Source: Rhodanobacter sp. L36
Lineage (GTDB): Bacteria; Pseudomonadota; Gammaproteobacteria; Xanthomonadales; Rhodanobacteraceae
Direction of reading: 5' to 3'
Assembly: GCF_009765755.1 (NCBI RefSeq)
Contig: NZ_LMUV01000011.1
Coordinates: 515,140-579,139, forward strand
DNA: 64,000 nt
Shown here: in pieces, positions 42,249-56,916 of the stretch
How positions within the stretch are numbered: position 1 is the stretch's first letter
Layout of the letters: each line of letters opens with the position of its first letter
Position numbers and translations under genes: made by a program
The notes under the pieces: generated by a model
What the model saw: the letters and a program-made list of their open reading frames with translations, nothing else
What the model was told of the DNA's origin: nothing
The model's database searches: none

Positions 42249-42272
42249 GTCCGCTTTCGACCCAAAGCGGAT
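42249..42272 (+). repeat. 24-nt hairpin repeat, copy a
   Basis: Arms GTCCGCTTT / AAAGCGGAT around loop CGACCC. It lies 38 nt before the start of the gene at 42311. The preceding 256 bases (41993-42248) hold no gene I can support. Confidence 0.85.
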
Positions 42273-42310
42273 TTCTCACAGTCGTATTTTTGAGCGCAAA
42301 ATTACCTTCA

Positions 42311-42955
42311 ATGTCGACAGCCCAGCATTCGCGTTCGATTGATGCAGCGGCTAAAGCAGCCCTCAAGCCTCTTGGTTGTGTGCAGAAAGGACGATCAAGA
42401 ACTTGGCTTGATGATCATGCATGGTGGATCGGGGTAGTTGAGTTCCAGCCGTCCGCTTGGGCACAAGGCAGTTACTTGAACGTTGGAGCATGCTGGCTTT
42501 GGTACGAGAAGGAATACTTGTCTTTCAATACGGGAGGTCGGGTCGAAAACTTCCAGCCATCCTCAAGCGATGATCAGTTCTCGTTGATAGCCCGAAGCTT
42601 GGCGAAACGTGCAAGCGAAGAGGTAGTGGTCCTGCGCGAGCGCTTTAAGTCAGTTACGCATGTGCACGCATGGCTCGCGGATCAGCAAGCAGCTTCAATA
42701 TGGGATCACTACCACCTAGCCGTAGCGGCCGGATTGGCCGGTGCAACAGAACTGAGTAAACGCTCTTTCGCCGATGTGATGTCCGATCCAGAGGACAGGC
42801 CTTGGGCTGCTGACATCAGGCGACGTTCCACTGAACTCATGCGCTGCCTAGGCTTTCGCAGCGGATTTGATGCCGAGGTTATGGGGACGGTCGAACGTGC
42901 TAGAAATCTTCTAGGTTTGCCGAGCATCGAGGGGCAACCAAGCACCTTTGACTAA
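42311..42955 (+). CDS. Hypothetical protein (DUF4304-like)
   Basis: 214-residue soluble protein from ATG 42311. KGRSRTWLDDHAWWIGVVEF followed by QPSAWAQGSYLNVGACWLW (about residues 27-66) resembles the core of DUF4304-type proteins. The rest is helical, ending in a repeat-like ARSLAKRASEE and a C-terminal RARNLLGLPS. No signal peptide. Codon use is less GC-rich than in the core genes. Bracketed by hairpin copies a and b. Confidence 0.65.
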   Translation: MSTAQHSRSIDAAAKAALKPLGCVQKGRSRTWLDDHAWWIGVVEFQPSAWAQGSYLNVGACWLWYEKEYLSFNTGGRVENFQPSSSDDQFSLIARSLAKRASEEVVVLRERFKSVTHVHAWLADQQAASIWDHYHLAVAAGLAGATELSKRSFADVMSDPEDRPWAADIRRRSTELMRCLGFRSGFDAEVMGTVERARNLLGLPSIEGQPSTFD

Positions 42956-42969
42956 CGTGTTTGTGTGAC

Positions 42970-42993
42970 GTTCGTTTTTGACCCATAGCGGAC
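42970..42993 (+). repeat. 24-nt hairpin repeat, copy b
   Basis: Diverged copy: GTTCGTTTT, TGACCC, ATAGCGGAC. It starts 14 nt after the previous stop and ends 24 nt before the next start. Confidence 0.75.
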
Positions 42994-43017
42994 TCCGGAG
43001 AACGAGGTTGAAGGCTC

Positions 43018-43329
43018 ATGGCAACCGGCAAACAAACTCGGACGATCGAACTGGCAATGTTGCGAAGAGCAGTCGACGCTCTTTTTGACCACGTGATGAT
43101 TGCTCGCGGCATTAATGAGGTCGTCATCGACCAGCCTATGTACTGGTCAATTCTCCCCCACGATTCTCGCAAAATGGATGAGCCACCGAGTGAGCTAGGA
43201 GTGGGTAACTTGAATGATGATCTGGATTTCGTTCCCAGTGTCCTCAAAACGGGCGCATCACCTGTTTCACTTACGCTGACGGAGGTTGCTCCGTTGCTAA
43301 CCTATGTCGGGGAAGTTGTAGGCGGGTAG
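43018..43329 (+). CDS. Small hypothetical protein
   Basis: 103 residues from ATG 43018 with GAAGG 6 nt upstream. Soluble, acidic in the second half, with a helical start (IELAMLRRAVDALFDHVMIA). No family recognised. Bracketed by hairpin copies b and c. Confidence 0.55.
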   Translation: MATGKQTRTIELAMLRRAVDALFDHVMIARGINEVVIDQPMYWSILPHDSRKMDEPPSELGVGNLNDDLDFVPSVLKTGASPVSLTLTEVAPLLTYVGEVVGG

Positions 43330-43331
43330 TT

Positions 43332-43355
43332 GTCCGCTTTTGACCCAATGCAACC
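43332..43355 (+). repeat. 24-nt hairpin repeat, copy c
   Basis: GTCCGCTTT, TGACCC, then AATGCAACC: the left arm and loop are intact and the right arm is degenerate. It starts 2 nt after the previous stop. Confidence 0.65.
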
Positions 43356-43401
43356 GGTCGATCAATATCATGGCCGCGAGCTATCAGCGTTGGACCTCTA
43401 A

Positions 43402-43692
43402 GTGCGCAAACCTGGTAAAACGGCAATCGCCACGATGCTCGCCGCAGGTTCGGTACTGGCAGTGTTGTCATGGTCCATCATTGATGCTCCTGAAGACACT
43501 GGCATCCGGGTCGTTGGTCACGTGGTGGACTGTGAGGTCATCGAGCGAGCAAACCAATGCGTTGTTGTTCTTACACCTTCGAACAAGCAGGTTTGGGTCT
43601 TCAAACCGTTTGCAAAGAGGGGCGATCTCGTGACTCTTAAGGAAATGAAGAGACCGATTTTCCATGGCGCTTCGTACGCAATCTCGTTTTGA
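43402..43692 (+). CDS. Small membrane-anchored hypothetical protein
   Basis: 96 residues from GTG 43402. A single N-terminal hydrophobic helix (about 8-26, AIATMLAAGSVLAVLSWSII), then a small beta-rich domain with one Cys pair (VVDCEVIERANQCVVVL). Probably anchored with the domain outside. No family recognised. Bracketed by hairpin copies c and d. Confidence 0.55.
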   Translation: MRKPGKTAIATMLAAGSVLAVLSWSIIDAPEDTGIRVVGHVVDCEVIERANQCVVVLTPSNKQVWVFKPFAKRGDLVTLKEMKRPIFHGASYAISF

Positions 43693-43702
43693 AAAGCAAA
43701 GT

Positions 43703-43726
43703 GGCCGCTTTCGACCCATAGCGAAC
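43703..43726 (+). repeat. 24-nt hairpin repeat, copy d
   Basis: GGCCGCTTT, CGACCC, ATAGCGAAC; starts 10 nt after the previous stop. No supportable gene follows until the adhesin. Confidence 0.75.
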
Positions 43727-44638
43727 ATTAAGCAATGTGAGCATCACCATCAGCACAACTCGGCAGTGCCCATACGTTGGCGTCTGATCGTGACGACCAA
43801 GTAACGGCGTGCAAAAAGGGCGGAGTGGCTTTAGCGCTTTGAAAGTGGCGGATCGAAAGTGAAGAGCAGAAACGCAAAACAGCTAACCCACTGACGACGT
43901 TTAAGACGTACAACGCGGCGCATGAAGGAAACAAAAATTAAGCCTGACTGATAAAGGCGCGTACTCGGCGGCGCGTTTCTCGCACGCTTCGCAGATCGGG
44001 TCGCTTCCTTTGAACGACCTTTCTGTTGTCTGGTTCGCACGCAACGAGTCGCACGCAGCCTCCCACTCACTGCATTGCCCGCTTCGATCGTCGGCAAGAC
44101 GTCCCGGGACTCTTCCTTATCTATCGTTGATTCGCCTCAAAGTGAAGGCGAACAACGTCGGCTTATGGTTTGCCCGGCGACGTTTTCTGCGGAAGCATGG
44201 TCAACAGCTGCACGCTTTTTTTGCCGTGAGGGTGGCTGGTTGACTCCCTATTGCTTTGGTCTCTTTGGTTTTTCAGCGCCTAAAACCCTCCTATAGGCCC
44301 TTAAGCTGTGAGATTCGACAAATAATGTGACCGCTGGCACAGTCCGTGCAACCGCGCTCCTGTACCGAACCGAAAATGATTGGTTCTTCAGGCAAGCAAG
44401 CGAAGGGTAAGGCCTGCATGGCAGGGGGAGCTTTAACCGCGATGTGCGTAAACAAGGGGGAGGGGGAATATCAGAGCTCACGCGGCGATCTTCGGACGCT
44501 GCTCGTCTTGTCCTGCCGCGGCGGGGCACATCGCCACCGCTAGAACAAGACTGTTCGTACTGCATGCGCCAGCAACGTCTGGCAAGTCTGGCTTTCCGCC
44601 GGGCTACTCATTCTTTTATCTAAATTTCGGACATCATC
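43727..44638. other. Long gene-poor region upstream of the adhesin
   Basis: 912 bases with no gene I can support. Frames of 60-105 codons occur on both strands, but none has a convincing ribosome site or family resemblance. Composition is mixed, with purine-rich runs near 44420-44470 and an inverted repeat TTCGCCT / AGGCGAA at 44131-44152. It probably contains the adhesin promoter and a long leader plus decayed gene remnants. Confidence 0.5.
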
Positions 44639-47600
44639 ATGAACAAGATCTATAGCAAAGTGTGGAACAGCGCCTTGGGTCAGCTGGTTGTGGCGTCTGA
44701 ACTAGCTAGCAGCGCTCGCTCAGGATCTACATGCGGGACGGGCCAAACACGCTCACCGTTCGCCCTGGCTTTAACGATGATCGGTTTCGCTGTTGCTGTC
44801 GGTGTGAGTGCACCTGCCTCAGCGCAAGTATTTATTGATGATGGTACGGACGGAACGTGCGCGGTCATCACGGACACTACCGTGAACGTCTTTTCCGGAA
44901 GCGTGGTGAACAGCAAATGCAACACCAACGTCGCAACACAGACAGACCATTCGACTTTTTTTGGACCTGCCGGATCGGCTGGTACGGGTTCAAACAGTCT
45001 CAGCCTTGGCGGATTGCTTTACGTCAATAGCACCGGCTCAATCATCGACGGTCTCGCACTGAACAATCAGAAGCTGACAGCATTGGCCAACGGTTCCGTA
45101 GCTCCGGGAAGCACCGACGGTGTTAATGGTGGGGAACTTTACAGCACGGGCAATGGCTTGCTGACCGCACTCGGCGGTACAGGTGGCGCCATTAGTACGA
45201 CTGGAGTCATCACGGCACCGAGCTACGCGCTTTCGACGGGAACAGCTACCAGCGTGGGTAGCGCGCTGCTTAATATCGATACGTTTGGTCTCAAATACTT
45301 TCGGGCCAATTCCACGGGAACAGCAGCCAGCGCGACAGGCGCTAACGGCATCGCTATTGGCAATGCATCTGTCGCATCGGGTGCCGGCGCAATCAGCTTT
45401 GGCGCAAGTTCGTCTGCCGCAGCAGCGGGTGCGTTAAGTTTCGGAAATGGCGCTATTTCGGCAACCAACGGCGATTTGGCAGTCGGCAATAACACCAACG
45501 CCTCCGGCGGGGGCTTGGGGTCGATCGCGATCGGTACGGGAGCAAAAGCCCTGACCAGCGCAGTCGTCATCGGTAATGGCGCAACGGGATCATCTCCTGG
45601 CGGCACACCCGTGGCCATCGGGTTCAGTGCTAACGCCGTGAGTACCTCGGGCAGTGGGATTGCGATCGGCGACTGGTCCAAGGCGTCAGGCATTGGGGCG
45701 ATTGCGATCGGGGGTCAGCCGGCCGGAAATTACACTGCTGGTCAATCAACACTTGCAATCGGCAACCGAAGCGTTGCGCTGGGGAATACCAGCAGCAGCA
45801 ACGGCAGTGACAGTGTGGCGGTCGGCAGCGGTGCGATCACTGCATCAGCGGCTGCAGCAAGTGTTGCTCTAGGCTCGGGTGCATCGGCCCAAAATTCTAA
45901 CGATGTGGCACTGGGTGCGAAGAGTGTTACTGCCGCGCCGACGACCGGTGTGACAGCCTTGTACGGCGCCTCTGCTGCGGGGGTCGCCAAAGCAGCTTCC
46001 GGCGTCGTGTCTGTGGGCTCCCTCGGTAACGAACGTCAGATCAGCAACGTCGCCGCCGGTGTGATTTCTGCCACCAGCACGGATGCGGTCAATGGCTCGC
46101 AGTTGAATTCCGTGGCGACGGGCGTCAACAAAGAAGGCGCGGCTGCTGCAGCCGCATTGGGCGGTGGCAGCACTTACAACAGTGCAACCGGTGTGATCTC
46201 GACGCCGAGCTACACAACCTACAATGCGGATGGCAGCACTGGCACGGTAAACAATGTTGGTGCGGCACTGGCTGCAGTGAACAGTTCGGGCATCAAGTAT
46301 TTCCACGCCAATTCCACGGACCTTGATAGCGAAGCGACGGGCACGGATTCGGTGGCCATCGGTCCGGACAGCCAATCGAATGGGGCCAACAGCCTTGCTG
46401 CGGGCACCGGAGCATTGGCTGCAGATGCGAATGACACCGCCGTCGGTTCGGGAGCGACAACTTTCACCGGTGGCGGCAATACAGCCTTGGGTGCGGGTTC
46501 GAACGCGGGTAGTGCCCTCGGGGACGACACGGCGGTTGGTAACAATGCCAGCGCAATCGGCGGTGATAGCGTTGCCCTTGGGAACAACACGCGGACCGTC
46601 GGTGCCAACGGCGTAACGATCGGCTCTAACGCCACAGTCAATTTCGACAACGATGTTGCACTGGGCTCTGGCGCTCAAGATACACGCGGCGCGCTGACGG
46701 GGTACTCCGCTCCTGGCCTAACCGCAGCTCAAACTTCGTCTGGCGAAGTCAATGTCGGCAACCGTCAAATCACAGGAGTCGCGGCGGGCAGTGAAGCGAA
46801 CGACGCGGTGAATGTCAGTCAACTCGAATCAGTTGCCACCACTGCCAATAACGCTGTGCAGTACGACAACCCAGGGAAAACCAGTGTGACGCTGGGTGGT
46901 GTGGGCGCTACGACGCCAGTCACCGTGACCAACGTTGCCGATGGTGATCTCAGCCCCACCAGCTCGGACGCGGTGAACGGCTCGCAACTCAACACGACGA
47001 ACACGAATGTCACCAACTTGGGTACACAGGTTGACAATATTTTTGCCACAGGCACCAAGTATTTCCACGCAAATTCAACGGGGCCGGATAGCAGTCCTGT
47101 TGGTGCAGACAGTGTCGCCATCGGTAGTGGCGCGATATCCAACAACGCCGGTGACGTAGCGCTCGGGATGAATTCATTGACGGCCGCCGTAAACGTCACG
47201 CCCAGCGCAACCATCGACGGCACCGTCTATAACTTTGCCGGCGCCGGCGCAGGGGTCACGAGCGTTGTGTCCGTCGGTTCGAATGGAGCAGAACGTCAGA
47301 TCACCAATGTAGCTGCTGGCCGCGTCACTGCGACGAGCACGGATGCCGTCAATGGGAGCGAGCTGTTCGCAACGAATACCGAAGTGGGCAACATCGGCAC
47401 GGCTCTCAACAATATCAACAGTGGTAGTGGCATTAAATATTTTCGCGCCAACTCGGCACTGGCTGACGCCAGTGCGGCCGGCACAAACAGCGTGGCAATC
47501 GGTCCGACGGCTGTTGCTGCGGGCACTGCCAGTGTGGCCGAAGGCTTGGGCAGCACAGCTTGGAACGACAACAGCATCGCGATCGGCAATGGCGCGACGG

Positions 47601-50600
47601 CCGGCATCAGTGGTGACCCGACACGCATTTCGACCATCGCCATCGGCAACCAGTCGGTTGCCAGCGCGCAAAACAGCATGGCGATCGGCGATGGCTCGAA
47701 GGCCAGCGGTCCGCAAGCGACGGCCATTGGTTCCAACGCGCAGGCGACCTCCGCACAGTCAACCGCGCTTGGTCGCGGCGCCAATGCTGCTAACAATGCG
47801 ACAGCGCTTGGCATGAACGCCGTTGCCACCGGCACGCGTTCCACTGCGGTGGGACAGGGAGCCGCGGTTACGGTGAACGATGGCACGGCCATTGGGCAGA
47901 TGGCCAAGGTCACGGCTGTGGGTGGGGTTGCGCTGGGGTTGGGCAGCAGCGCGGATCGTACGGGACTGGCTGGAGCACCGGAGTTGTTCTCGGGCGTAGC
48001 AATCACGTCGACATCTGGCGCGGTGTCGGTGGGTAGCGCCGGTGGCGAGCGGCAGATCACGAATGTTGCCGGTGGCACCCAAGCGACCGATGCGGTCAAC
48101 GTGCGGCAATTGCAGACTGTGCAAGGTCAGTTGGTCAGCACGATCGGCAGCGGATACATGACCGCCAACGCGGACGGCAGTGTCTCCGGCCCAACGTTCA
48201 ACCTTACCGACATCAGTGCAACAGGTAGCCAGTCGACGTCGAGCTACAACAACGTTGGCGATGCACTCAGCGGCTTGAACACCAACATTGATAACGTCGA
48301 CAACCTGGTCAATGGCATTACGGCAGGCGGCGGCATCAAGTATTTCCACGCCAACTCGGCGCTTGCGGACTCAGCGGCGTCAGGTACCGACAGCGTAGCG
48401 GTCGGACCGCTGGCTAACGCTGTCGGCAGCAATAGTGTTGCTGTTGGTAACGGCGCGGCAGCCCATACTGCCGACGACGTCGCCATCGGCTCAGCTTCGT
48501 CGACGGCTGCAACCACCGTTGTGTCCGGCGCAACGATCGGGGGTGTCAGCTATGCCTTCGCCGGTGCGACGCCGGACGGTGCATTCTCGGTCGGTTCGGT
48601 CGGTCACGAGCGTCAGATTCAGAACGTGGCGGCGGGGCGATTGACCAGTACAAGCACGGATGCCGTCAACGGCAGCGAGCTCTTCGCCACGAACCAACAG
48701 GTGACTCAGAACACCACGGACATCAGCACCATCAACGATGGTGGCGGTATCAAGTACTTCCATACCAATTCGACGCTCGGCGACTCGACGCCGACCGGTG
48801 CAAACAGCGTGGCGATCGGACCGGAAGCCAACGCTGTGGGCGGTAACAGCGTGGCGGCAGGTAATGGAGCGACGGCCACCAACGTTGATGACGTGGCGAT
48901 CGGTGCGGCTTCAGTTACTGCGACAACCACAGCGGTTACCGGGGCAAGTATTGGTGGGGTCAACTATGTTTTCGCTGGCGCTACACCGGATGGCGCGTTT
49001 TCGGTCGGATCTGCGGGTCATGAGCGCCAAGTGCAGAACGTCGCGGCGGGCAGGCTGAGCGGCACTTCGACGGATGCCGTCAATGGTAGCCAGCTGTTCG
49101 CTACCAACGAGCAAGTGACACAGAACACCAACGACATTGGCAATATCGATGCGGGCGGCGGCATCAAATACTTCCACGCCAATTCGACACTCGCTGATTC
49201 GACCGCCACTGGCACGAACAGCGTGGCGATCGGACCGACCGCCGTTGCCAACTTCGCCAACGATGTCGCCGTCGGATCGGCATCGACGACCGCCGCGACA
49301 GTGGCCGCGGCTGGTGCAACGATCGGGGGTGTTAGCTATGCCTTCGCCGGTGCGACGCCGGACGGCGCGTTTTCGGTTGGTTCGGTCGGTCACGAACGTC
49401 AGGTTCAGAACGTGGCAGCCGGTCAGTTAAGTGCCTCGAGCACGGATGCTGTGAATGGCTCGCAGCTATTTGCAACCAACCAGCAGGTGACGCAGAACAC
49501 CACCGACATCGACAACATCAACAATGGCGGTGGCATCAAGTATTTTCATGCCAACTCGATCGGTGCAGACAGTCAGGCTTTGGGTGCTGATAGCGTAGCA
49601 ATCGGTGAGAATGCGATGGCCAATAACGACGGCGATGTTGCGCTGGGTGCAGGGTCCGTCACTGCGGCGTCCGTAGATACGGCCAGCGTGACGATCAACG
49701 GCGTGACCTACAATTTTGCGGGCATCAACCCCGCGAACGTGGTCAGTGTGGGCAGCGTGGGCAACGAACGCCAGCTCACCAATGTGGCAGCCGGGCAGGT
49801 GACGGCCACCAGTACCGATGCGGTCAACGGCTCCCAGCTGTATGCCACCAACCAGGCGGTGGACAACCTGGGCACCGTGGTCAGCAACATCAATAACGGA
49901 AACGCCAACAGCAAATACTTCCACGCCAACTCGACTGGCGCGGACAGCCAGGCAACCGGCACCGACGCGGTAGCCATCGGTCCGACATCTGTCGCCTCCG
50001 GTGACAACAGCATTGCTGCCGGTCATGGAAGTACGGCATCCGGCGACAACAGCACCGCGGTAGGCAACGGCAGCACGGCTTCGGGTCAGGGCAGTACAGC
50101 AGTCGGCACAGGCGCGACAGCGACCAACGACAACAGTGTGGCGATCGGCTCGGGTTCAACGACGGATCGGGACAACAGCGTCTCGGTCGGTTCGGCGGGC
50201 GATGAGCGCCAGATCACCAACGTGGCAGCCGGTACTGCAAACACCGATGCGGTGAACGTGAGCCAGTTGAAGCAGTCGGTGACGCAGGCCAACGCCAGCA
50301 ACGTTCAGTACAACAAGAACGGCGACGGCAGCGTCGACTACCACAACGTGACGCTGGATCCGGGTGGCGACCCGACCATCATCCACAACCTGGGTGCGGG
50401 CGTGGCAAATACCGATGCTGCAAACGTGGGTCAGTTGAACCAGGGCATCACGACCGCCGAGAACTGGGCCAAGAACTACACCGACCAGAAACTCAGCACG
50501 ATCAACAGCGAACTCAACACGATCGGCAACCGCGCGAACGGTGGCGTTGCTTCTGCCATGGCGATGTCCAGTCTGCCGCAGGCCTATCAGCCCAACCAGA

Positions 50601-50761
50601 GCTCGGCGGCAGTGGCCTTGGGCAATTTTCACGGTGAAACCGGCATCGCGGTCGGTGTATCGACCATCACCGAAAGCGGCCACTACATCTTCAAAGTGAA
50701 CGCCTCGACCAACACGCGCGGTGATGCTGGCGTGGGCGTCGGTGCGGCGGTGGTCTGGTAA
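44639..50761 (+). CDS. YadA-type trimeric autotransporter adhesin
   Basis: 2040-residue surface adhesin. The extended signal peptide starts MNKIYSKVWNSALGQLVVAS (the ESPR of large autotransporters), with the hydrophobic core near residues 45-60 and likely cleavage after PASAQ. The passenger alternates YadA-head repeats (SVAIGPxAxAxG), about nine HANS connectors (IKYFHANST) and about ten necks (ERQITNVAAG followed by TDAVNGSQL). A coiled-coil stalk precedes the C-terminal beta-barrel anchor (final 90 residues, from RANGGVASAMAMSSLPQAYQ). It trimerises in the outer membrane and mediates attachment or autoaggregation. The BamE/OmpA-type lipoprotein gene follows by 86 nt. Confidence 0.95.
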   Translation: MNKIYSKVWNSALGQLVVASELASSARSGSTCGTGQTRSPFALALTMIGFAVAVGVSAPASAQVFIDDGTDGTCAVITDTTVNVFSGSVVNSKCNTNVATQTDHSTFFGPAGSAGTGSNSLSLGGLLYVNSTGSIIDGLALNNQKLTALANGSVAPGSTDGVNGGELYSTGNGLLTALGGTGGAISTTGVITAPSYALSTGTATSVGSALLNIDTFGLKYFRANSTGTAASATGANGIAIGNASVASGAGAISFGASSSAAAAGALSFGNGAISATNGDLAVGNNTNASGGGLGSIAIGTGAKALTSAVVIGNGATGSSPGGTPVAIGFSANAVSTSGSGIAIGDWSKASGIGAIAIGGQPAGNYTAGQSTLAIGNRSVALGNTSSSNGSDSVAVGSGAITASAAAASVALGSGASAQNSNDVALGAKSVTAAPTTGVTALYGASAAGVAKAASGVVSVGSLGNERQISNVAAGVISATSTDAVNGSQLNSVATGVNKEGAAAAAALGGGSTYNSATGVISTPSYTTYNADGSTGTVNNVGAALAAVNSSGIKYFHANSTDLDSEATGTDSVAIGPDSQSNGANSLAAGTGALAADANDTAVGSGATTFTGGGNTALGAGSNAGSALGDDTAVGNNASAIGGDSVALGNNTRTVGANGVTIGSNATVNFDNDVALGSGAQDTRGALTGYSAPGLTAAQTSSGEVNVGNRQITGVAAGSEANDAVNVSQLESVATTANNAVQYDNPGKTSVTLGGVGATTPVTVTNVADGDLSPTSSDAVNGSQLNTTNTNVTNLGTQVDNIFATGTKYFHANSTGPDSSPVGADSVAIGSGAISNNAGDVALGMNSLTAAVNVTPSATIDGTVYNFAGAGAGVTSVVSVGSNGAERQITNVAAGRVTATSTDAVNGSELFATNTEVGNIGTALNNINSGSGIKYFRANSALADASAAGTNSVAIGPTAVAAGTASVAEGLGSTAWNDNSIAIGNGATAGISGDPTRISTIAIGNQSVASAQNSMAIGDGSKASGPQATAIGSNAQATSAQSTALGRGANAANNATALGMNAVATGTRSTAVGQGAAVTVNDGTAIGQMAKVTAVGGVALGLGSSADRTGLAGAPELFSGVAITSTSGAVSVGSAGGERQITNVAGGTQATDAVNVRQLQTVQGQLVSTIGSGYMTANADGSVSGPTFNLTDISATGSQSTSSYNNVGDALSGLNTNIDNVDNLVNGITAGGGIKYFHANSALADSAASGTDSVAVGPLANAVGSNSVAVGNGAAAHTADDVAIGSASSTAATTVVSGATIGGVSYAFAGATPDGAFSVGSVGHERQIQNVAAGRLTSTSTDAVNGSELFATNQQVTQNTTDISTINDGGGIKYFHTNSTLGDSTPTGANSVAIGPEANAVGGNSVAAGNGATATNVDDVAIGAASVTATTTAVTGASIGGVNYVFAGATPDGAFSVGSAGHERQVQNVAAGRLSGTSTDAVNGSQLFATNEQVTQNTNDIGNIDAGGGIKYFHANSTLADSTATGTNSVAIGPTAVANFANDVAVGSASTTAATVAAAGATIGGVSYAFAGATPDGAFSVGSVGHERQVQNVAAGQLSASSTDAVNGSQLFATNQQVTQNTTDIDNINNGGGIKYFHANSIGADSQALGADSVAIGENAMANNDGDVALGAGSVTAASVDTASVTINGVTYNFAGINPANVVSVGSVGNERQLTNVAAGQVTATSTDAVNGSQLYATNQAVDNLGTVVSNINNGNANSKYFHANSTGADSQATGTDAVAIGPTSVASGDNSIAAGHGSTASGDNSTAVGNGSTASGQGSTAVGTGATATNDNSVAIGSGSTTDRDNSVSVGSAGDERQITNVAAGTANTDAVNVSQLKQSVTQANASNVQYNKNGDGSVDYHNVTLDPGGDPTIIHNLGAGVANTDAANVGQLNQGITTAENWAKNYTDQKLSTINSELNTIGNRANGGVASAMAMSSLPQAYQPNQSSAAVALGNFHGETGIAVGVSTITESGHYIFKVNASTNTRGDAGVGVGAAVVW
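48326..49897 (+). repeat. Intragenic tandem repeats in the adhesin passenger
   Basis: Blocks opening with GGGIKYFH start at 48326, 48740, 49154 and 49526, with periods of 414, 414 and 372 bp (138, 138 and 124 residues). Each block contains a head stretch, then FAGATPDGAFSVGS (absent from the last), a neck and FATNxQVTQN. Such near-identical units can recombine and change passenger length. Confidence 0.85.
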
Positions 50762-50776
50762 TTCCGATGACGGCGG

Positions 50777-50796
50777 CGCTTTCCGGTCGGAAAGCG
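50777..50796. terminator. Hairpin between the adhesin and the lipoprotein gene
   Basis: Perfect arms CGCTTTCCG / CGGAAAGCG with a 2-nt loop, 16 nt after the adhesin stop. No U-tract, so it more likely tunes or protects the upstream mRNA than blocks readthrough. Confidence 0.45.
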
Positions 50797-50847
50797 TCGA
50801 TCACTTGAACGGCGCGCAGACATGCGCGCCTACATAGCGAGAACAAC

Positions 50848-51693
50848 ATGCATAGTTCATTGGCAAGAAGCGTTGGGATGATGGCCGTGTTGCTGGTTGC
50901 AGGCACGTTGGGTGCCTGCGGAAACATCAGCCACAAGATTGCTGCCGATGGCAGCAGCGCGGAACAACTGGTGTGGCCATCGCCCGACAGCACGACGCCG
51001 ATCCACAAGAACGGCACGTTTCCAGACGTGTCCGACTTGCGGCTCATCAAGCCCGGCATGAATAAACATCAGATCGCGCAGTTGATCGGCACGCCGCATT
51101 TCAGCGAAGGCGTTTGGGGCGTGCGCGAATGGAACTACCTCTTCAACTTCCGCAAGCATGGCTCGAATGAAGTGACGCAATGTCAGTACAAGGTGCTGTT
51201 CGACGAGCAGAAATTGTCGCGCAGTTTCTACTGGCAGCCACAAACCTGTGCGGCGATGCTGGATGAGCCGATGCACGAGCGGCACGAAGCGAAGGAGGAG
51301 GTCTTTACGTTATCCACTGATGCGCTGTTCGCGTTCGATAAATCAGCGGTCGGCGATATCAAGTCAGGAGGTCTCGAACAACTCGATACGCTGGCAGCTC
51401 AGATCGTCGCGAAAGATGGCCAAGTCCGGCATATCCACATCGTTGGCTACACTGACCGGCTCGGCGGCGCCGCCTACAACGACAACTTGTCGGATCGCCG
51501 GGCTAAATCGGTCATGCAATATCTCATGAAGCGCGGTGTGTCAGACCAATACATTAATGCCGAGGGTCGTGGCATGAACGAGCCCGTAAAGGAATGCCAG
51601 GATGCTGATCGCAACACACTGATCGCCTGCCTGATGCCAAACCGCAGGGTTGAGATTCGTGTAGAAGGCATTGCAAACAGCGACACACATTGA
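50848..51693 (+). CDS. BamE-like / OmpA-like lipoprotein
   Basis: 281-residue lipoprotein with lipobox GACG at about residues 22-25. An N-terminal SmpA/OmlA (BamE-like) module spans about 60-135 (LIKPGMNKHQIAQLIGTPHF, then VREWNYLFNF). A C-terminal OmpA peptidoglycan-binding domain spans about 150-275 (HIVGYTDRLGGAAYNDNLSD, then NRRVEIRV). Lying right after the adhesin, it probably helps assemble the trimer in the outer membrane or tether it to the wall; OmpA-family partners are known next to other trimeric autotransporters. Confidence 0.88.
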   Translation: MHSSLARSVGMMAVLLVAGTLGACGNISHKIAADGSSAEQLVWPSPDSTTPIHKNGTFPDVSDLRLIKPGMNKHQIAQLIGTPHFSEGVWGVREWNYLFNFRKHGSNEVTQCQYKVLFDEQKLSRSFYWQPQTCAAMLDEPMHERHEAKEEVFTLSTDALFAFDKSAVGDIKSGGLEQLDTLAAQIVAKDGQVRHIHIVGYTDRLGGAAYNDNLSDRRAKSVMQYLMKRGVSDQYINAEGRGMNEPVKECQDADRNTLIACLMPNRRVEIRVEGIANSDTH

Positions 51694-51819
51694 CTCCATG
51701 CGACAAGCGCAAATGACGATGAATGATTGCTCCATTCAATCTAGCCCGGTTCAAACCCTGAAAATTCCAGAAGCTCTCGCTTTCAGCGCGATTGGTTAAG
51801 GTGTTCGATCACGCGAAAC

Positions 51820-51843
51820 GTCCGCTTTCGACCCAAAGCGGAT
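51820..51843 (+). repeat. 24-nt hairpin repeat, copy e
   Basis: GTCCGCTTT, CGACCC, AAAGCGGAT. It ends 40 nt before the start at 51884. Downstream text TGTCACGAG recurs after copy i. Confidence 0.85.
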
Positions 51844-51883
51844 CTTTCTATGCTGGTGTCACGAGGGTCAAGGGGAAGCTCGA

Positions 51884-52087
51884 ATGGGTGACAAAATCGC
51901 AACTACGGTGTTCTGGCTGATTGCCGGTTCGCTCGTCATCTTTGGTTTGGTCGCGCTCGCGGGTTTCCCATTTCGTAGCTTGGAACTCTGACAACTAGTG
52001 GTAGGCCTGCTCTGCGCCATCGCCTTGATGTTTGGCCTTCGCCAGTGGGTGCAGATTCTGCGTGGAAAGCGGCGCGCGGGTGGCTGA
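51884..52087 (+). pseudogene. Small two-helix membrane protein split by an in-frame TGA
   Basis: AAGGGGAAG lies 7 nt before ATG 51884. The first part encodes 35 residues with one membrane helix (TVFWLIAGSLVIFGLVALAG) and stops at TGA 51989-51991. The same frame continues for 31 codons with a second helix (LVVGLLCAIALMFGL) and a basic end (ILRGKRRAGG) to the stop at 52085. The parts together look like one 67-residue protein in which a sense codon, perhaps TGG, became TGA. Alternatives are a 35-residue protein or sequencing error. Confidence 0.55.
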
Positions 52088-52094
52088 CCGAGAG

Positions 52095-52118
52095 GTCCGC
52101 TTCCGACCCAAAGCGGAC
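52095..52118 (+). repeat. 24-nt hairpin repeat, copy f
   Basis: GTCCGCTTC, CGACCC, AAAGCGGAC; begins 7 nt after the previous stop and ends 27 nt before the next small frame. Confidence 0.85.
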
Positions 52119-52145
52119 CTGGCGCGAAAAGCAACGGACGGCCCT

Positions 52146-52268
52146 ATGCGACGGATATTGCGTGGATTGGCGACATTGGGATTTATATGCGCGCACCTGC
52201 AGACTCTTTCAGCACAATCTCTTACAGCTGGTCAAAAAACGGACATGGCTGCGGCGATGCGGCCATAG
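52146..52268 (+). CDS. Short secreted-type open frame, possibly a truncated gene
   Basis: 40 codons from ATG 52146. The first 24 residues form a plausible signal peptide (MRRILRGLATLGFICAHLQT, then LSAQ), leaving only 16 residues of mature chain. It may be the start of a gene that has lost the rest, or a real small peptide. The ribosome site is weak. The remaining sequence to 52382 contains only the degenerate repeat copy g. Confidence 0.25.
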   Translation: MRRILRGLATLGFICAHLQTLSAQSLTAGQKTDMAAAMRP

Positions 52269-52299
52269 AGCTGCTCATTCGCTAGCGCTGCGAACGTAC

Positions 52300-52320
52300 T
52301 GTCCACTTCGACTCATAGAA
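52300..52320 (+). repeat. 24-nt hairpin repeat, degenerate copy g
   Basis: TGTCCACTT, CGACTC, ATAGAA: left arm and loop recognisable, right arm lost. It lies just past the 3' end of the convergent dehydrogenase. Confidence 0.4.
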
Positions 52321-52382
52321 TTTCGGAAGCGCTATCGTGTCGATTTTTACGAAACGACTTCCACGCAAGGTGTGACTACCAT

Positions 52383-53306
52383 TTAGCGGAATACAATGCC
52401 CGTTAACCCCTCGGATGCGTTCCAAAGCTTCGAGGCCACGCTCACGTCCAACGCCTGTGATTCGATCTTTCCTGGGCCCGGCGGCCCTTTGAATTCCTTG
52501 AAGCCCTGCGGGCCAAAATATTGACCACCCTTCACTCCAGGCATCGTTGCAGCCATCAGTGTAGGCAGCGCTCCCGCAGCGGCCGATTGACCCATGAGAC
52601 TTTTTGCGACAGGGATAATAGTGCGCAAGAAAATATTTGCCTTGGGCGCCGGACCGTTGGCAAACAGGTCCGTACGCGCGAAACCCGGATGCGCTGCGAC
52701 ACTGGTCAAGTCCCAGCCATTCGCATTGCTTCGTCGATCAAGCTCGAGCGCGAACATGAGCATGGCGAGCTTGGACTGAGAATAAACCGGGAATGGCTTG
52801 TACCCATGCTCGTAGTTGAGATCGTCGAGCTGGATTGCGCCTGTGCGGTGCCCGAAGCTGGACAACTGAACCACGCGCGCTTTCGCTGCGCTTAAAAGTG
52901 GTCGAAGTCTCGCAGTCAGCGCGAAATGAGAGAGATAGTTGGTGCCAAACTGCAACTCGAACCCGTCCGCCGTGGTCCCGCGATCATGCGGCGCCATGAT
53001 GCCTGCGTTATTTACCAGCATGTTGATTGGCCGACCTGCGGCGAGCATGCGGTTAGCGAAATTCTGAATCGAAGTCAGACTGGCCATGTCAGCGAGTTCG
53101 AATCGGACGTTCGCATTTTTATGTTTCTGGCGGATCCATGCTTCCGCATGGCGCCCTTTGGTCGGATTGCGTCCAGCCAAGATGACGTCAGCCTTCGCGG
53201 CAGCCAATCCCAGCGCGGTCTCAAGTCCAAGACCGCCAGTTGCACCGGTGATGATGGCCAGTTTGCCGGATTGATCGGGGATGCTTTCAGCAGTCCAGGT
53301 CGTCAT
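52383..53306 (-). CDS. Short-chain dehydrogenase/reductase (retinol-dehydrogenase-like)
   Basis: 307-residue NAD(P)-dependent oxidoreductase from ATG 53306 (AAGGA 9 nt upstream). Cofactor motif TGATGGLG, NNAG, catalytic serine in VVQLSSFG and the YSQSK active-site pair. The lengthened C-terminus with PGVKGGQYFGPQG resembles the WWOX/retinol-dehydrogenase-like SDRs common in actinobacteria and proteobacteria. Substrate unknown. A second SDR lies 202 bp upstream on the same strand. Confidence 0.9.
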   Translation of the reverse strand: MTTWTAESIPDQSGKLAIITGATGGLGLETALGLAAAKADVILAGRNPTKGRHAEAWIRQKHKNANVRFELADMASLTSIQNFANRMLAAGRPINMLVNNAGIMAPHDRGTTADGFELQFGTNYLSHFALTARLRPLLSAAKARVVQLSSFGHRTGAIQLDDLNYEHGYKPFPVYSQSKLAMLMFALELDRRSNANGWDLTSVAAHPGFARTDLFANGPAPKANIFLRTIIPVAKSLMGQSAAAGALPTLMAATMPGVKGGQYFGPQGFKEFKGPPGPGKIESQALDVSVASKLWNASEGLTGIVFR

Positions 53307-53508
53307 GTCTGTATTCCTTCGTATTGAAGTTTCATCACGTGTTTGCATTTGGCCGACAAGCGCTCGCTCTTCTCCATGCGGAGAGGCCGCACTCGGCTCA
53401 ATGCGTCGCGATCGTCATTGCGTGTCGGAGATGTCGCCGACGAACCTGTGGCCATGGGCGCCGCTTTCCACGCTTGCTGTCGACGAGGGAGACGGGCAGT
53501 GGCAGTGA

Positions 53509-54351
53509 TCAAGCGCTCACCGGGAAGTTGGTCGAGCCTGCCTCATCCTTTTGCGCTTCAATTGAAGCCAAACGATCCGACAACGCCTTCTGAATAATCG
53601 TGTAAGCATCGCTGCCCATCACGATCCGCTTCGGCGCAGGTTCCTGATCGACGCTGGCAATGATTTTTGCCGACACCTTTTCCGGATCACCCGGAGCGGG
53701 GCGCGATGTGTCTTTGATCATCACGTAGACGAAAGCTGCGGGCGTGCCTTTGTAAGCGTCCATTTGTTTGCCGAGCTTGACGCTGCCGCCGCGGAAGTTG
53801 GTACGGGCCCCACCTGGCTCGATGATGGTGACGCCGATATTGAAGGGGGCAAGCTCTAGGCCGATCGAGTCTAGGAAACCTTCAAGACCCCACTTGCTTG
53901 CGTGGTAAAGCGAACCTCCTGGAAGTGTCGCCTGACCACCAAAAGTCGACAGGCCGAGGATGCGTCCACCGCCTTGCGCTCGCAGATGGGGTAAAGCTGC
54001 GCGGATCAGCATGATCGGGCCGACCAGATTGGTGTTCAGCTGATGAATGATCTGCTCGTCGCTCAGTTCTTCGGCGGCGCCGAAGAGGCCGTAGCCGGCA
54101 TTGCTTACCAAGACGTCGATCCGGCCGAGCTGCGCGAACGCCTGATCCACGACCTGCTGAATCTCGGACGTGTCCGTCATGTCGAGATGGCTCAGCCAAA
54201 GCTGATCGCCGTACTTCTGCTTGAGGTCGTTCATCGCCTCCATTTGGCGAACGGTGCCCGCCACGCGATCGCCGCGCGCGAGCAGTTGTTCCGTCATGTG
54301 TCGGCCGAAACCGCTGTTCACACCAGTGATGAGCCAAGTTCTTTGTGCCAT
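53509..54351 (-). CDS. Short-chain dehydrogenase/reductase
   Basis: 280-residue classical SDR from ATG 54351 (GGAG 7 nt upstream). Motifs: TGVNSGFG, SNAGYG, STFGGQ with the catalytic Ser, and YHASK. The sequence after the active site (VTIIEPGGARTNFRGG) is typical of the oxidoreductases that sit beside AraC regulators in many bacteria. Divergent from the AraC gene, with paired palindromes between, so it is likely that regulator's target. Confidence 0.9.
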   Translation of the reverse strand: MAQRTWLITGVNSGFGRHMTEQLLARGDRVAGTVRQMEAMNDLKQKYGDQLWLSHLDMTDTSEIQQVVDQAFAQLGRIDVLVSNAGYGLFGAAEELSDEQIIHQLNTNLVGPIMLIRAALPHLRAQGGGRILGLSTFGGQATLPGGSLYHASKWGLEGFLDSIGLELAPFNIGVTIIEPGGARTNFRGGSVKLGKQMDAYKGTPAAFVYVMIKDTSRPAPGDPEKVSAKIIASVDQEPAPKRIVMGSDAYTIIQKALSDRLASIEAQKDEAGSTNFPVSA

Positions 54352-54415
54352 ATCAATCTCCGTGCATGAGCGTCGAGGAAGCTCGACCATGTGATTGATG
54401 GTAAGGTGGCTTGGT

Positions 54416-54485
54416 CAGACTATGAATACTTTTACGTCTTGATTAATTGCTCAATAGTCTGAAAATTACATAGACTCCTCTATGT
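54416..54485. promoter_or_regulatory. Candidate operator region between the SDR and araC-type genes
   Basis: An AT-rich 148-bp divergent gap with two inverted repeats: CAGACTAT / ATAGTCTG (54416-54423 and 54454-54461, 30 nt apart) and ACATAGA / TCTATGT (54468-54485, 4 nt apart). AraC proteins usually read direct or inverted half-sites here, so these are likely binding sites for the adjacent regulator. Confidence 0.5.
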
Positions 54486-54498
54486 CTTGAGGTCCGAG

Positions 54499-55419
54499 AT
54501 GTCTGTTGACCCCTTTTCCGATGTTCTTGACCTGATCCGGGCCAAGTCGGTTGTGTCCGGCAGTCTGGTGGCGGGTGGTGCGTGGTCGATTCGATTTCCG
54601 CCGTCGGACCTCGTCAACTTCTGGGGCGTCGCGCGAGGCGAGTGCTGGGTACGGATTGGATCAGCCAACGCGCTGCTCCATCTCGAAGCCGGAGACTTTC
54701 TTTTGCGTACCGCGTCTGAAGGGGCCGTTCTGGCCAGTGATATGGCCACGACGCCGGTCGATTTCGAAGACGTGCTCGCATCGGGCACGGATGGCCGACT
54801 TCATCATGGCCAAGGCGAGCAGTTCTTGATGATCGGCGGCAAGGTGGAACTGGACGCAGCGCATGGAGCGGCGCTCATCGATGCATTGCCGTCATCGATT
54901 CACATTCGCCATGGATCACAACACGCAACCATCCTCGAATGTCTGCTCACGCAACTCGTGCGCGAGCGGACGGAGGACATGCCGGGTGTCGCGACGGCGT
55001 CGACTCAACTCGCCCACTTGATGTTCATCGAGATTCTTCGCGCCCGTCTGGACTCGGGTGCCGAGCTTGCTCCGGGCTGGTTGCGCCTGGTGGGCAATCG
55101 ACGCCTGGCACCTGCTGTCCGACTGCTTCACGGCGAACCGGCCAGAGCATGGGGACTGGAAGAACTTGCTCGCGAGTGCAACATGTCACGCGCAACATTT
55201 GCGGTCCATTTCAAAGCAGACGCCGGGATCACGCCGCTCGCGTACCTGGCACAGTGGCGTATGCGTTTGGCAGAACGGGCATTGCGCGACGGCGATAGCG
55301 CGATTTCAACACTTGGTTATTCGCTGGGATACACATCGGAAAGTGCATTCAGCAATGCGTTCAAACGGCTTGTTGGCAAGGCTCCCGCACGCTACCGCGC
55401 CCAAGCACGACTTCGCTAG
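54499..55419 (+). CDS. AraC-family transcriptional regulator
   Basis: 306 residues from ATG 54499 (GAGG 7 nt upstream; an in-frame TTG at 54487 is less likely). The N-terminal half is a cupin-type ligand domain (VNFWGVARGECWVRIG, LEAGDFLLR) of the AraC_binding_2 or CRP-like subtype. The C-terminal two helix-turn-helix modules lie at about 200-300: GLEELARECNMSRATFAVHF and ISTLGYSLGYTSESAFSNAF, ending FKRLVGKAPARYR. It likely controls the divergent SDR gene and itself. Confidence 0.92.
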   Translation: MSVDPFSDVLDLIRAKSVVSGSLVAGGAWSIRFPPSDLVNFWGVARGECWVRIGSANALLHLEAGDFLLRTASEGAVLASDMATTPVDFEDVLASGTDGRLHHGQGEQFLMIGGKVELDAAHGAALIDALPSSIHIRHGSQHATILECLLTQLVRERTEDMPGVATASTQLAHLMFIEILRARLDSGAELAPGWLRLVGNRRLAPAVRLLHGEPARAWGLEELARECNMSRATFAVHFKADAGITPLAYLAQWRMRLAERALRDGDSAISTLGYSLGYTSESAFSNAFKRLVGKAPARYRAQARLR

Positions 55420-55475
55420 TTGGAAGGTTTGGAAACAATCCGTCATTTCAGCCGAGCGATACCTCAACTGAGAAT

Positions 55476-55499
55476 GTCTGCTTTCGACCCATAGCGGAC
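55476..55499 (+). repeat. 24-nt hairpin repeat, copy h
   Basis: GTCTGCTTT, CGACCC, ATAGCGGAC; 56 nt after the araC-type stop and 64 nt before the next start. Confidence 0.8.
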
Positions 55500-55563
55500 A
55501 TTAAAGTCCGATCAACAGGAAATAAATTGGGATGACCGCTGTCTTAAAAGTAAGGAAAGTTAG

Positions 55564-56028
55564 ATGCGACGTCTCCGGGCTGTAGCATTCAATGTGCTCT
55601 TAGAAAGCGCCGTCAACACGAAAAAACATTCTGATGGCCGCTTGCTTTTAGAGGCCATACTCTTAATCGTGAGCTTCATCAGCGCCTTCGCGTCTTTCTA
55701 TTTGGTGGCCACCGCGCTTGTATCGCTATCTCATTTCATTGCGCTTCGAGTGCTCTTTGGTTTCGTATCTTCACTGCTTCTTTTGGTGGGAGCGGGCGTG
55801 GCCAGCGGCGACGCTTCTGGACTCTGGCGGCTTCCCCTGCGCGCCTTGGCGCTAGCCGCCATCCTCGCTGGAGCGGTCGCCCTAATTGGTGAGGCTTTTG
55901 CAGGTGACTGGCATAGGCTGTTCGGTGCTTTAGGACTTCGGGCTCTGATATGTATTTTGGTGGGCATTGCAGTATTCGTCTTGACGCAGCGTTTGCGAAG
56001 CTTCTTGCTGTCAAAGCAACATAGATGA
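55564..56028 (+). CDS. Hypothetical membrane protein
   Basis: 154 residues from ATG 55564 with AAGGAAAG upstream. Four hydrophobic helices (about 28-50, 58-80, 88-110 and 120-142). The cytoplasmic ends are basic. No family recognised. Bracketed by hairpin copies h and i. Confidence 0.6.
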   Translation: MRRLRAVAFNVLLESAVNTKKHSDGRLLLEAILLIVSFISAFASFYLVATALVSLSHFIALRVLFGFVSSLLLLVGAGVASGDASGLWRLPLRALALAAILAGAVALIGEAFAGDWHRLFGALGLRALICILVGIAVFVLTQRLRSFLLSKQHR

Positions 56029-56078
56029 TGAGAACTTAGAGACGATCGGCGCCAGTGGTGCTGTGACACTCATCCAGT

Positions 56079-56102
56079 GTCCGCTTTCGACCCAAAGCGG
56101 AC
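56079..56102 (+). repeat. 24-nt hairpin repeat, copy i
   Basis: GTCCGCTTT, CGACCC, AAAGCGGAC, an exact consensus copy. Read in frame it gives the peptide SAFDPKRT, a spurious start often seen in proteobacterial annotations. Confidence 0.88.
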
Positions 56103-56157
56103 GTGCGGGCCACATCGCGAGGCTTACTCTCAGTGTCACGAGTTTAGGGGTGAGAAC

Positions 56158-56370
56158 GTGCACGATCACTTGGTAACTGTAGATGCCGACACAGCTTTGA
56201 TTCGCGTGTTTCGTGTGTCGCCCGACGGGCGGCGGACACTATTCACCGAATACAAGTTGCCTAGTCACAACCAACAAGGATGGACGGAACAGGTTACCCA
56301 ACTAGCGCATATTCTCGGCGAGGACCTCCTCATTGACTCGGCGTCGCTGCGCGAACGGTTTTCACTTTGA
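56158..56370 (+). CDS. Small hypothetical protein
   Basis: 70 residues from GTG 56158, with AGGGGTGAG at a good distance. A longer in-frame start at 56077 lies inside the hairpin repeat and is probably not used. Soluble, beta-rich start (HLVTVDADTALIRVFRVSPD), helical end. No family recognised. Bracketed by copies i and j. Confidence 0.5.
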   Translation: MHDHLVTVDADTALIRVFRVSPDGRRTLFTEYKLPSHNQQGWTEQVTQLAHILGEDLLIDSASLRERFSL

Positions 56371-56377
56371 CGCTAAC

Positions 56378-56401
56378 GTCCGCTTCCGACCCAGAGCGGA
56401 C
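56378..56401 (+). repeat. 24-nt hairpin repeat, copy j
   Basis: GTCCGCTTC, CGACCC, AGAGCGGAC; 7 nt after the previous stop and 42 nt before the next start. Confidence 0.85.
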
Positions 56402-56443
56402 CTGAAGAGTGAAGTTGTTCGATTGCCAAATGCAGGAGGATCG

Positions 56444-56877
56444 GTGAATACGTTTGTGTCATTGACGCGTAAGGTCGCTCTTGTTTTATGCATTCTCGAT
56501 CTGACTGCGTGCCAAGCGAGCAGCGCTGTACACGGATGGATTTCGGTCGATTGAATCAAGCTGATCGAATAGACATCGCGACGAGCAACATGACAACACT
56601 GCGAGTCATTCGTGACAACCGTGAAATTGGTCAACTCACAGCTTTCGCCCGAACGCACGACACCCAATGGAAAACGAATGGGGCCGGTGTACCCGTTGCT
56701 CTAGTAGGAGCCAATTTCTATGCGGGGAACAAATTTCTCGGCGACCTCGATGTAGGAAACAATTTCCTGACGGCACAAGGTTGTGGCGACTTTCAAAGCA
56801 GGGACGTTTCTCCGCAGGATCGCGAGGAAGTCTTGGGTCTGTTGGGGGTCAAGGACCCCTATGAGGGAAACCACTAA
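56444..56877 (+). pseudogene. Frameshifted small lipoprotein gene
   Basis: GGAGGA lies 5 nt before GTG 56444. The frame encodes a lipoprotein signal (VNTFVSLTRKVALVLCILDL, then TAC) plus a few residues and ends at TGA 56552. A second frame, shifted by one base and overlapping that point, runs uninterrupted to TAA 56877 and encodes about 105 residues (from LNQADRIDIATSNMTTLRVI to GVKDPYEGNH) with no start signal of its own. The two halves read as one lipoprotein of about 140 residues broken near 56530-56554. A programmed shift or sequencing error is possible. Confidence 0.55.
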
Positions 56878-56893
56878 CGCTTGACCTGTCCAA

Positions 56894-56916
56894 GTCCGCT
56901 TCGACCCAAAGCGGAC
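56894..56916 (+). repeat. Hairpin repeat, copy k (23 nt)
   Basis: GTCCGCTT, CGACCC, AAAGCGGAC, one base shorter in the left arm; 16 nt after the previous stop. The next 387 bases (56917-57303) hold no gene I can support. Confidence 0.85.

Follow-up and report, generated by a model that had tools for sequence, protein, structure and literature searches.

The window, a 64,000-nucleotide stretch of the Rhodanobacter sp. L36 genome, carries between positions 42249 and 56916 a short repeat that recurs among small genes on both sides of a large adhesin gene. An earlier note had described this repeat as a directional array of eleven 24-nt hairpins. Our analysis points to a double-stranded site with two 12-bp arms and a 6-bp spacer which, together with a small tyrosine recombinase, bounds mobile one-gene units, a reading to which we give a probability of about 0.78. 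The features of the array are listed below, with the sites and cassette genes named according to this reading.

42249..42272, +, putative recombination site opening the array, with spacer CGACCC between two 9-bp arms
42290..42955, +, putative cassette gene of 221 aa with an uncertain start codon; DUF4304-like, scoring under the curated cut-off
42970..42993, +, putative recombination site, degenerate left arm, no hairpin
43018..43329, +, putative cassette gene, 103 aa, with a relative at L074 1000-1314, in a Dyella site array
43332..43355, +, putative recombination site, degenerate right arm, no hairpin
43402..43692, +, putative cassette gene, 96 aa, in unit 43331-43727
43703..43726, +, putative recombination site
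44639..50761, +, trimeric-autotransporter-like adhesin, 2040 aa, named by sequence appearance
50878..51693, +, BamE-OmpA protein, 271 aa
51820..51843, +, putative recombination site
52095..52118, +, putative recombination site
55476..55499, +, putative recombination site
55564..56028, +, putative cassette gene, 154 aa, without a match in Pfam; a relative lies at 10563-10883 of L027, in its attC part
56079..56102, +, putative recombination site, perfect consensus
56158..56370, +, putative cassette gene, 70 aa
56378..56401, +, putative recombination site
56590..56877, +, putative cassette gene, 95 aa, or 129 aa with an upstream start codon
56894..56916, +, putative recombination site closing the array; left arm one base short, intact right half

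Copies of the repeat and their gene context

Seven copies were found in the window at ≤3 mismatches, and none in 100 shuffles. The nine ungapped copies (42249, 42970, 43332, 43703, 51820, 52095, 55476, 56079 and 56378) all lie on the + strand and score 21 to 43 against a site model. With the gapped copy at 56894, ten of the eleven copies claimed hold up; position 52300 scores −26 and was rejected as a copy of the repeat. The arms given for the hairpin are those of the consensus, which is perfect at 56079 only. All ten copies read in one orientation along the small genes, as had been noticed from the asymmetric loop. The spacing proposed for them is kept in part: by our gene calls five of the ten (42970, 43332, 43703, 56378 and 56894), rather than most, lie 2-16 nt after a stop codon, and four (42970, 43332, 55476 and 56079), rather than eight, lie 24-64 nt before a start. 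The order of one copy per gap is likewise incomplete, with breaks at 43703-51820 (8 kb, with the adhesin inside), at 51820-52095, where no gene was called with confidence, and at 52095-55476, a stretch of 3.4 kb with two of its three genes on the opposite strand. The adhesin gene, which stands in the widest site-free interval of the array, contains many internal repeats. A Pfam search with the six small cassette genes of the window returned none at the cut-off.

At the level of the whole genome (3.98 Mb, 12 contigs), 21 copies are present at ≤3 mismatches. They form clusters, each of a single orientation, at C4:186-189 kb (5), C4:557-572 kb (7, the window), C4:662-665 kb (4) and C6:4.6-9.6 kb (4); the remaining copy is a single one on C8. 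The same threshold gives a copy in 15 of 41 genomes (the window's own and 40 relatives), and a second pattern detects copies in 71 of 233 genomes of the family and in 20 of 20 in one genus of the Dyella group (g20). An exact scan of species genomes yielded at least 116 stretches with the site, and the hosts among the matches listed are Lysobacter, Dyella, Caulobacter, Brevundimonas, Sphingomonas, Phenylobacterium, Massilia, Bordetella and others. The spacer is CGACCC in 523 of 718 sites, and 239 of 326 neighbouring pairs ≤3 kb apart are direct, the 87 opposite pairs coming mainly from Lysobacter-type loci. The regularity of these arrays is illustrated by L059 (Dyella kyungheensis), where 15 sites lie within 8 kb and 12 of the 14 gaps hold one gene in the same direction.

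To describe the gene context we used 47 Rhodanobacteraceae loci chosen for their sites (331 sites, leaving out 13 inside called genes) and a crude purpose-made gene caller. The upstream neighbour lies on the strand of the site in 293 of 312 cases and the downstream neighbour in 278 of 313. Same-direction intervals have a median length of 512 nt; 191 of 262 contain exactly one gene, on the strand of the site, and 32 are empty. Strand agreement is mixed in alphaproteobacteria (91 to 58, 50 loci), which in our opinion is because some groups, such as L064, use the opposite spacer sense. Thus, where random orientation and irregular spacing had been considered as the opposing outcome, the genome copies keep one orientation per cluster and, in the family, a regular place beside genes.

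Arm pairing and breakpoints

A palindromic consensus, often located few nucleotides past a stop codon (median site-to-stop distance 30 nt), could be read as an RNA or DNA hairpin serving as a terminator, a leader or a target of the REP (repetitive extragenic palindromic) system and its transposase RAYT (REP-associated tyrosine transposase). We folded four copies of the window. The perfect copy, 56079, forms the hairpin well (z −4.1), 43703 forms part of it only, and 42970 and 43332 form no hairpin as single-stranded DNA. Covariation tests show that the arms vary independently: matches at the inner pairs 2-9 of 523 CGACCC sites do not exceed those of shuffles (z −0.9 to 1.7), and in the 299 sites of the window's family 12 of 13 pairs have z values between −1.2 and 1.7, and apart from one weak outer pair there is no compensatory signal. 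At the innermost pair (T/C against A/G) 146 matches were counted for 141 expected. Since the arms vary independently and two window copies do not fold into the hairpin, each arm would be read by itself, as is the case in sites bound by protein on double-stranded DNA. Based on covariation and folding, we rejected the hairpin element, to which we attach only a minimal probability, and the 24-nt hairpin and 5'-leader of the earlier note are both left unsupported.

The same applies to its main alternative, a REP family mobilised by RAYT. Pairing is not conserved, and Y1 transposase domains (PF01797) are no commoner in genomes with the repeat (9 of 15) than in those without (20 of 26). The window's genome has one weak PF01797 match (C4:1534583), about 0.96 Mb from the window array and more than 0.8 Mb from the site clusters on that contig. 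REP sequences and bacterial interspersed mosaic elements (BIMEs) resemble the new repeats in being short, palindromic and intergenic, and the Lysobacter copies often form inverted pairs; the new repeats differ in lacking a pairing constraint and in marking the ends of gene units. Most likely, therefore, the repeat is a 30-base recombination site and not a working hairpin. A definition of the site as a fixed loop with arbitrary arms was also discarded, as hairpins with non-canonical arms occur at 7 of 1942 CGACCC loops, compared with 1 to 8 at each control loop.

We then consider what the arrays exchange. Blast comparison between and within loci gave 103 matches of at least 150 nt, many of which are unrelated repeats or housekeeping genes; the matches between arrays often end at sites. 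Positions 43331-43727 of the window correspond to 9007-9407 of L026, a different array of the window's genome, at 92% identity and with unrelated flanks, indicating that the homology of this common gene unit stops at both sites. Similarly, L074 6190-7044 is a unit of L080 (95%) and L077 3696-4186 a unit of L133, from the same genome as L077 (96%). A match of 98.5% between L073 and L123 has ends that are not at sites. The cassette-like order of gene, repeat and gene is hence borne out, as gene-plus-repeat units ending at the repeat recur in different contexts.

Comparison of 692 sites gave 98 right-similar and 562 left-similar pairs, of which a breakpoint filter (75% over 60 nt, start within 12 nt, other side not similar) retained 31 right-shared and 136 left-shared pairs, in 19 and 20 independent clusters respectively; the right-shared set includes one tandem duplicate (L059 6948/7100). 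In the left-shared clusters the left arm agrees at 0.88 (random 0.75), the right arm at 0.75 (random 0.72), and the spacer agrees. In the right-shared clusters the right arm agrees at 0.90 (random 0.72) and the left arm at 0.77 (random 0.75). The arms therefore agree on the shared side only, which places the exchange inside the 6-bp spacer, where Cre, Xer and other tyrosine recombinases likewise carry it out.

These breakpoints also bear on a dispersed small element whose copies would allow RecA-type recombination to shuffle genes. Copies are indeed dispersed in many groups, and Lysobacter frequently has two inverted sites separated by about 60 bp, the spacer being CGACCC in one and CGGCCA in the other; these pairs resemble a small non-autonomous element. 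Homologous recombination, on the other hand, would find an imperfect match of 24-30 bp short, would not confine breakpoints to the spacer rather than anywhere in the repeat, and would not be expected to yield one-way, one-gene arrays, which makes this explanation quite improbable. Such inverted pairs were seen in L104, L095 and L143, with CGACCC and CGGCCA spacers in L104; they are possibly the two ends of a recombinase element whose gene was lost.

On the basis of these results, we propose that the repeat is the core site of a tyrosine recombinase acting on double-stranded DNA, AATGTCCGCTTT-CGACCC-AAAGCGGACATT, in which two inverted 12-bp arms would surround a 6-bp crossover spacer that is asymmetric. 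In direct repeat, the site would bound mobile units, usually single genes, that are read one way, and exchange within the spacer would excise a unit, presumably as a circle, or insert it. Each unit would consequently carry the right arm of the preceding site and the left arm and spacer of the following one. Because the asymmetric spacer would impose one direction, one-way arrays would result.

A candidate small recombinase and the sites around it

Protein clustering of the site loci revealed one tyrosine recombinase family located 26-61 nt from a site in four loci. The absence of an integrase, stated by the earlier note, is true of the window, whereas the genome has three integron integrases and other genomes have this small recombinase between such sites. 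It is 204-208 aa long in the three fully read loci and belongs to PF00589, and its NCBIfam scores are far under the curated cut-offs of all families listed, IntI included. Among 31 sequences R55, K83, H152, R155 and H178 are invariant and Y187 is conserved in at least 90%, residues which we take to be the catalytic R-K-H-R-H-Y set. A structure model (mean predicted local distance difference test, pLDDT, 85.6) has its best matches in XerH, XerA and Cre, with IntI (2a3v) appearing from rank 33. About 23 residues precede the first helix of the model, probably too few for a core-binding domain. Small recombinases of the FimB/FimE type are similar in having about 200 aa and the catalytic domain only; they differ in that they invert one segment and have no cassette arrays. 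Simple tyrosine recombinases usually have a core-binding domain, as a passage of PMC8138268 indicates. The likely enzyme of the sites would therefore be this tyrosine recombinase of about 204 aa, a catalytic domain without a core-binding domain, as its association with the sites suggests.

The family is widespread, being present in 69 of 397 sampled genomes of the phylum, in at least 8000 protein clusters and in 313 plasmid records, 142 of them predicted conjugative. The genes carried by its arrays are mostly small. In L311 (plasmid NZ_CP129201.1 468599-481192) the gene comes directly after a phnCDE-ptxD phosphite cluster and a LysR regulator, and in L312 it follows LysR and adjoins an alkene reductase gene. 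Other recombinases were seen in site loci, with types assigned by eye: a phage-type integrase recurs in two other loci, at a distance of 100 nt in one and 5.5 kb in the other from a site, and further loci contain serine-recombinase-like genes.

A first check of the layout, in 25 of 42 recombinase loci (two of the 25 being the same place), showed a site 58-187 nt upstream of the match in 17, none upstream in 6, and a site 1-63 nt past the match in 14. A larger-scale scan covered 16 of 23 recombinase regions, 13 of the 16 from genomes picked for having the site. Sites stand on both sides of the recombinase in 15 of these 16 loci, and the nearest two are inverted about the gene in 15 of 15. The small recombinase of these genomes thus stands between two divergent arrays.

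The clearest case is G096, a one-contig g20 genome with 43 sites over 29.2 kb: the left 23 are all on the − strand and the right 20 all on the + strand, the orientation switches at the recombinase gene, and the nearest site is 88 nt from it. Called genes within the site span follow the same tendency (left, 18 − and 7 +; right, 17 + and 4 −). The array occupies a 33.5-kb island between tgt- and queA-like genes (names by eye), with a GC content of 57% compared with 63-64% in the flanks. We compared the place in 15 of the 19 other g20 genomes, two of them cut by contig ends; in 13 of 13 with both flanks the island is absent, and the flanks lie within about 0.6 kb of each other with no site. The left end of the island (L316 10413-12074) encodes a 553-aa protein with, by eye, the look of a large serine recombinase, and the island itself may thus move by another enzyme. 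About 1.7-2.5 kb to the right of the G096 recombinase (L212), a 258-aa cassette product resembles, by eye, a class A beta-lactamase.

In the window's genus, the recombinase-side half GGGTCGAACATTGCCCATTC is identical in 6 of 8 loci and the other half varies, which is what a fixed attachment site with exchangeable cassettes next to it should give. Half-sites were further scored in several sets. Of the best 29 new loci of a phylum search, 26 were scored, and in 17 of them a half-site of the expected sense stands on one or both sides of the gene (9 upstream, 14 downstream), with 1 upstream and 1 downstream on the opposite strand. Family loci have one in 10 of 17 scored (22 given), with 0 and 0 on the opposite strand, and site-bearing genomes in 7 of 15 scored (20 given), with 6 and 4, which we attribute to alphaproteobacteria using the other sense. 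Random segments of the half-site loci, true sites included, contain a half-site in 56 of 841 cases.

Two arms around a 6-bp centre are also found in the pdif (xrs) modules of Acinetobacter plasmids, where genes bounded by such sites are recombined by the host XerC/XerD. As XerCD is general, it could account for orphan arrays without a dedicated enzyme. The new sites bracket a recombinase different from XerC/XerD, and their arrays are long, chromosomal and provided with their own candidate enzyme. A dif pattern taken from the E. coli sequence, which may not be the dif of this host, has no match in the window's genome. Xer sites read ATAA-centre-TTAT according to part of PMC11705084, compared with CTTT-CGACCC-AAAG here, and the same part describes pdif pairs as mostly inverted and/or with differing centres, whereas the new sites are mostly direct and share one centre. 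Recombination by the host XerC/XerD is accordingly very unlikely.

Integrons, orphan arrays and the weight of the evidence

Ordinary integrons are present in the same genome. Two of its three IntI genes stand beside ordinary attC sites; the third is on C9, and our attC check covered the two integrons of L027 (G000 C4:650000-669999) and L028 (G000 C6:1-20000). These ordinary chromosomal integrons adjoin arrays of the new site: the attC sites, mostly 56-57 bp, lie near the IntI gene, the new sites come after or among them, and in L027 one of the intervals between attC sites contains a new site. The two systems have in common the neighbourhood and one gene family, that of the window cassette gene with a relative in the attC part of L027.

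This proximity would favour the repeats being a variant attC used by an ordinary integron integrase, in which case the arrays would be plain integrons. Several results argue for a different system. In g20 the sites are present in 20 of 20 genomes and IntI in 0 of 20 (E≤1e-60), which makes a variant attC unlikely. RYYYAAC/GTTRRRY boxes are missing from the new sites, and the same loci contain true attC sites apart from them: a simple attC scan of 12 loci found attC runs only in the integron parts of L027 and L028 and none at new sites, and single matches in the window, L026 and L074 occur at a distance from the sites and are probably due to chance. Unlike folded attC, the arms show no covariation, and the breakpoint is in the 6-bp spacer and not at the attC core, integron crossover taking place in the R' box of attC. 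Altogether, we see only a slim chance for a variant attC.

The double-stranded arrays nevertheless share much with chromosomal integrons and with CALINs (clusters of attC sites lacking integron integrases), namely one-way arrays of mostly single-gene cassettes, many genes of unknown function, and a tyrosine recombinase at the head in some genomes with orphan arrays in others. They differ in having a short double-stranded site with crossover in the spacer in place of a folded attC, a recombinase of about 204 aa without a core-binding domain and far under the IntI cut-off, and arrays on both sides of its gene. The arrays thus appear to work like integron cassettes, and they lack several of the defining features of integrons, pdif modules and REP elements that were tested. 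By comparison with CALINs, the window array may be an orphan, which the small recombinase would have built while present in the genome or provided in trans. Among integron-type clusters about half are orphans by the counts reported in a section of PMC9024848 (2961 CALIN, 2760 complete).

Several observations weigh against the double-stranded site and its small recombinase. Searches of the window's genome at E≤1e-40 and at E≤1e-50 did not detect the small recombinase, and the genome's 10 PF00589 matches, the three IntI included, are in frames of at least 314 aa. Co-occurrence is weak: of the 21 family genomes with the recombinase, 9 have sites, the overall figure being 71 of 233, and the enzyme is found in 2 of 20 g20 genomes (E≤1e-40), where all 20 have sites, and in 17 of 49 site-bearing genomes (E≤1e-30), three as fragments only. 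The other 7 of the 23 recombinase regions, from the window's genus and two others, have 0 or 1 relaxed full site in ≤20 kb and only half-sites beside the gene. Regarding pairing, pairs 1, 10, 11 and 14 reach z 2.8-4.4 in the mixed set of 523 sites, and outer pair 12 is weakly paired within the family (299 sites, z 2.6). Regarding the breakpoints, the filter removed most of the similar pairs, two Lysobacter-type clusters (24 and 15 sites) dominate the left-shared set, and at some positions past the arms agreement on the unshared side slightly exceeds random. Finally, the gain or loss of a single gene-plus-repeat unit at one locus between strains, which the earlier note had led us to look for, was not seen in 215 loci; the left-flank gene of the window array lies in a variable region, and only that flank was matched in 6 relatives.

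With less confidence than for the sites and their units, we favour a broader interpretation, in which a second integron-like platform would extend across Pseudomonadota. A compact recombinase made of the catalytic domain only would stand amid two divergent arrays and capture single genes through double-stranded 12-6-12 sites; the spacer classes CGACCC, CGGCCA and CCACCC would serve as address codes, and many orphan arrays would be invisible to attC-based finders. In the open-access literature (preprints not covered, few subscription papers) we found no report of the site or platform, and a search by the nucleotide string of the site gave nothing relevant among the matches listed. Integrons are the textbook route by which bacteria stockpile single genes. 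If true, the platform would represent an independent solution to gene stockpiling, with a much simpler site and a smaller enzyme, and it makes the formation of one-way arrays without single-stranded sites testable. In L102 (Sphingomicrobium metagenome-assembled genome, 6778-6908), four sites about 35 bp apart form a tight run with differing spacers.

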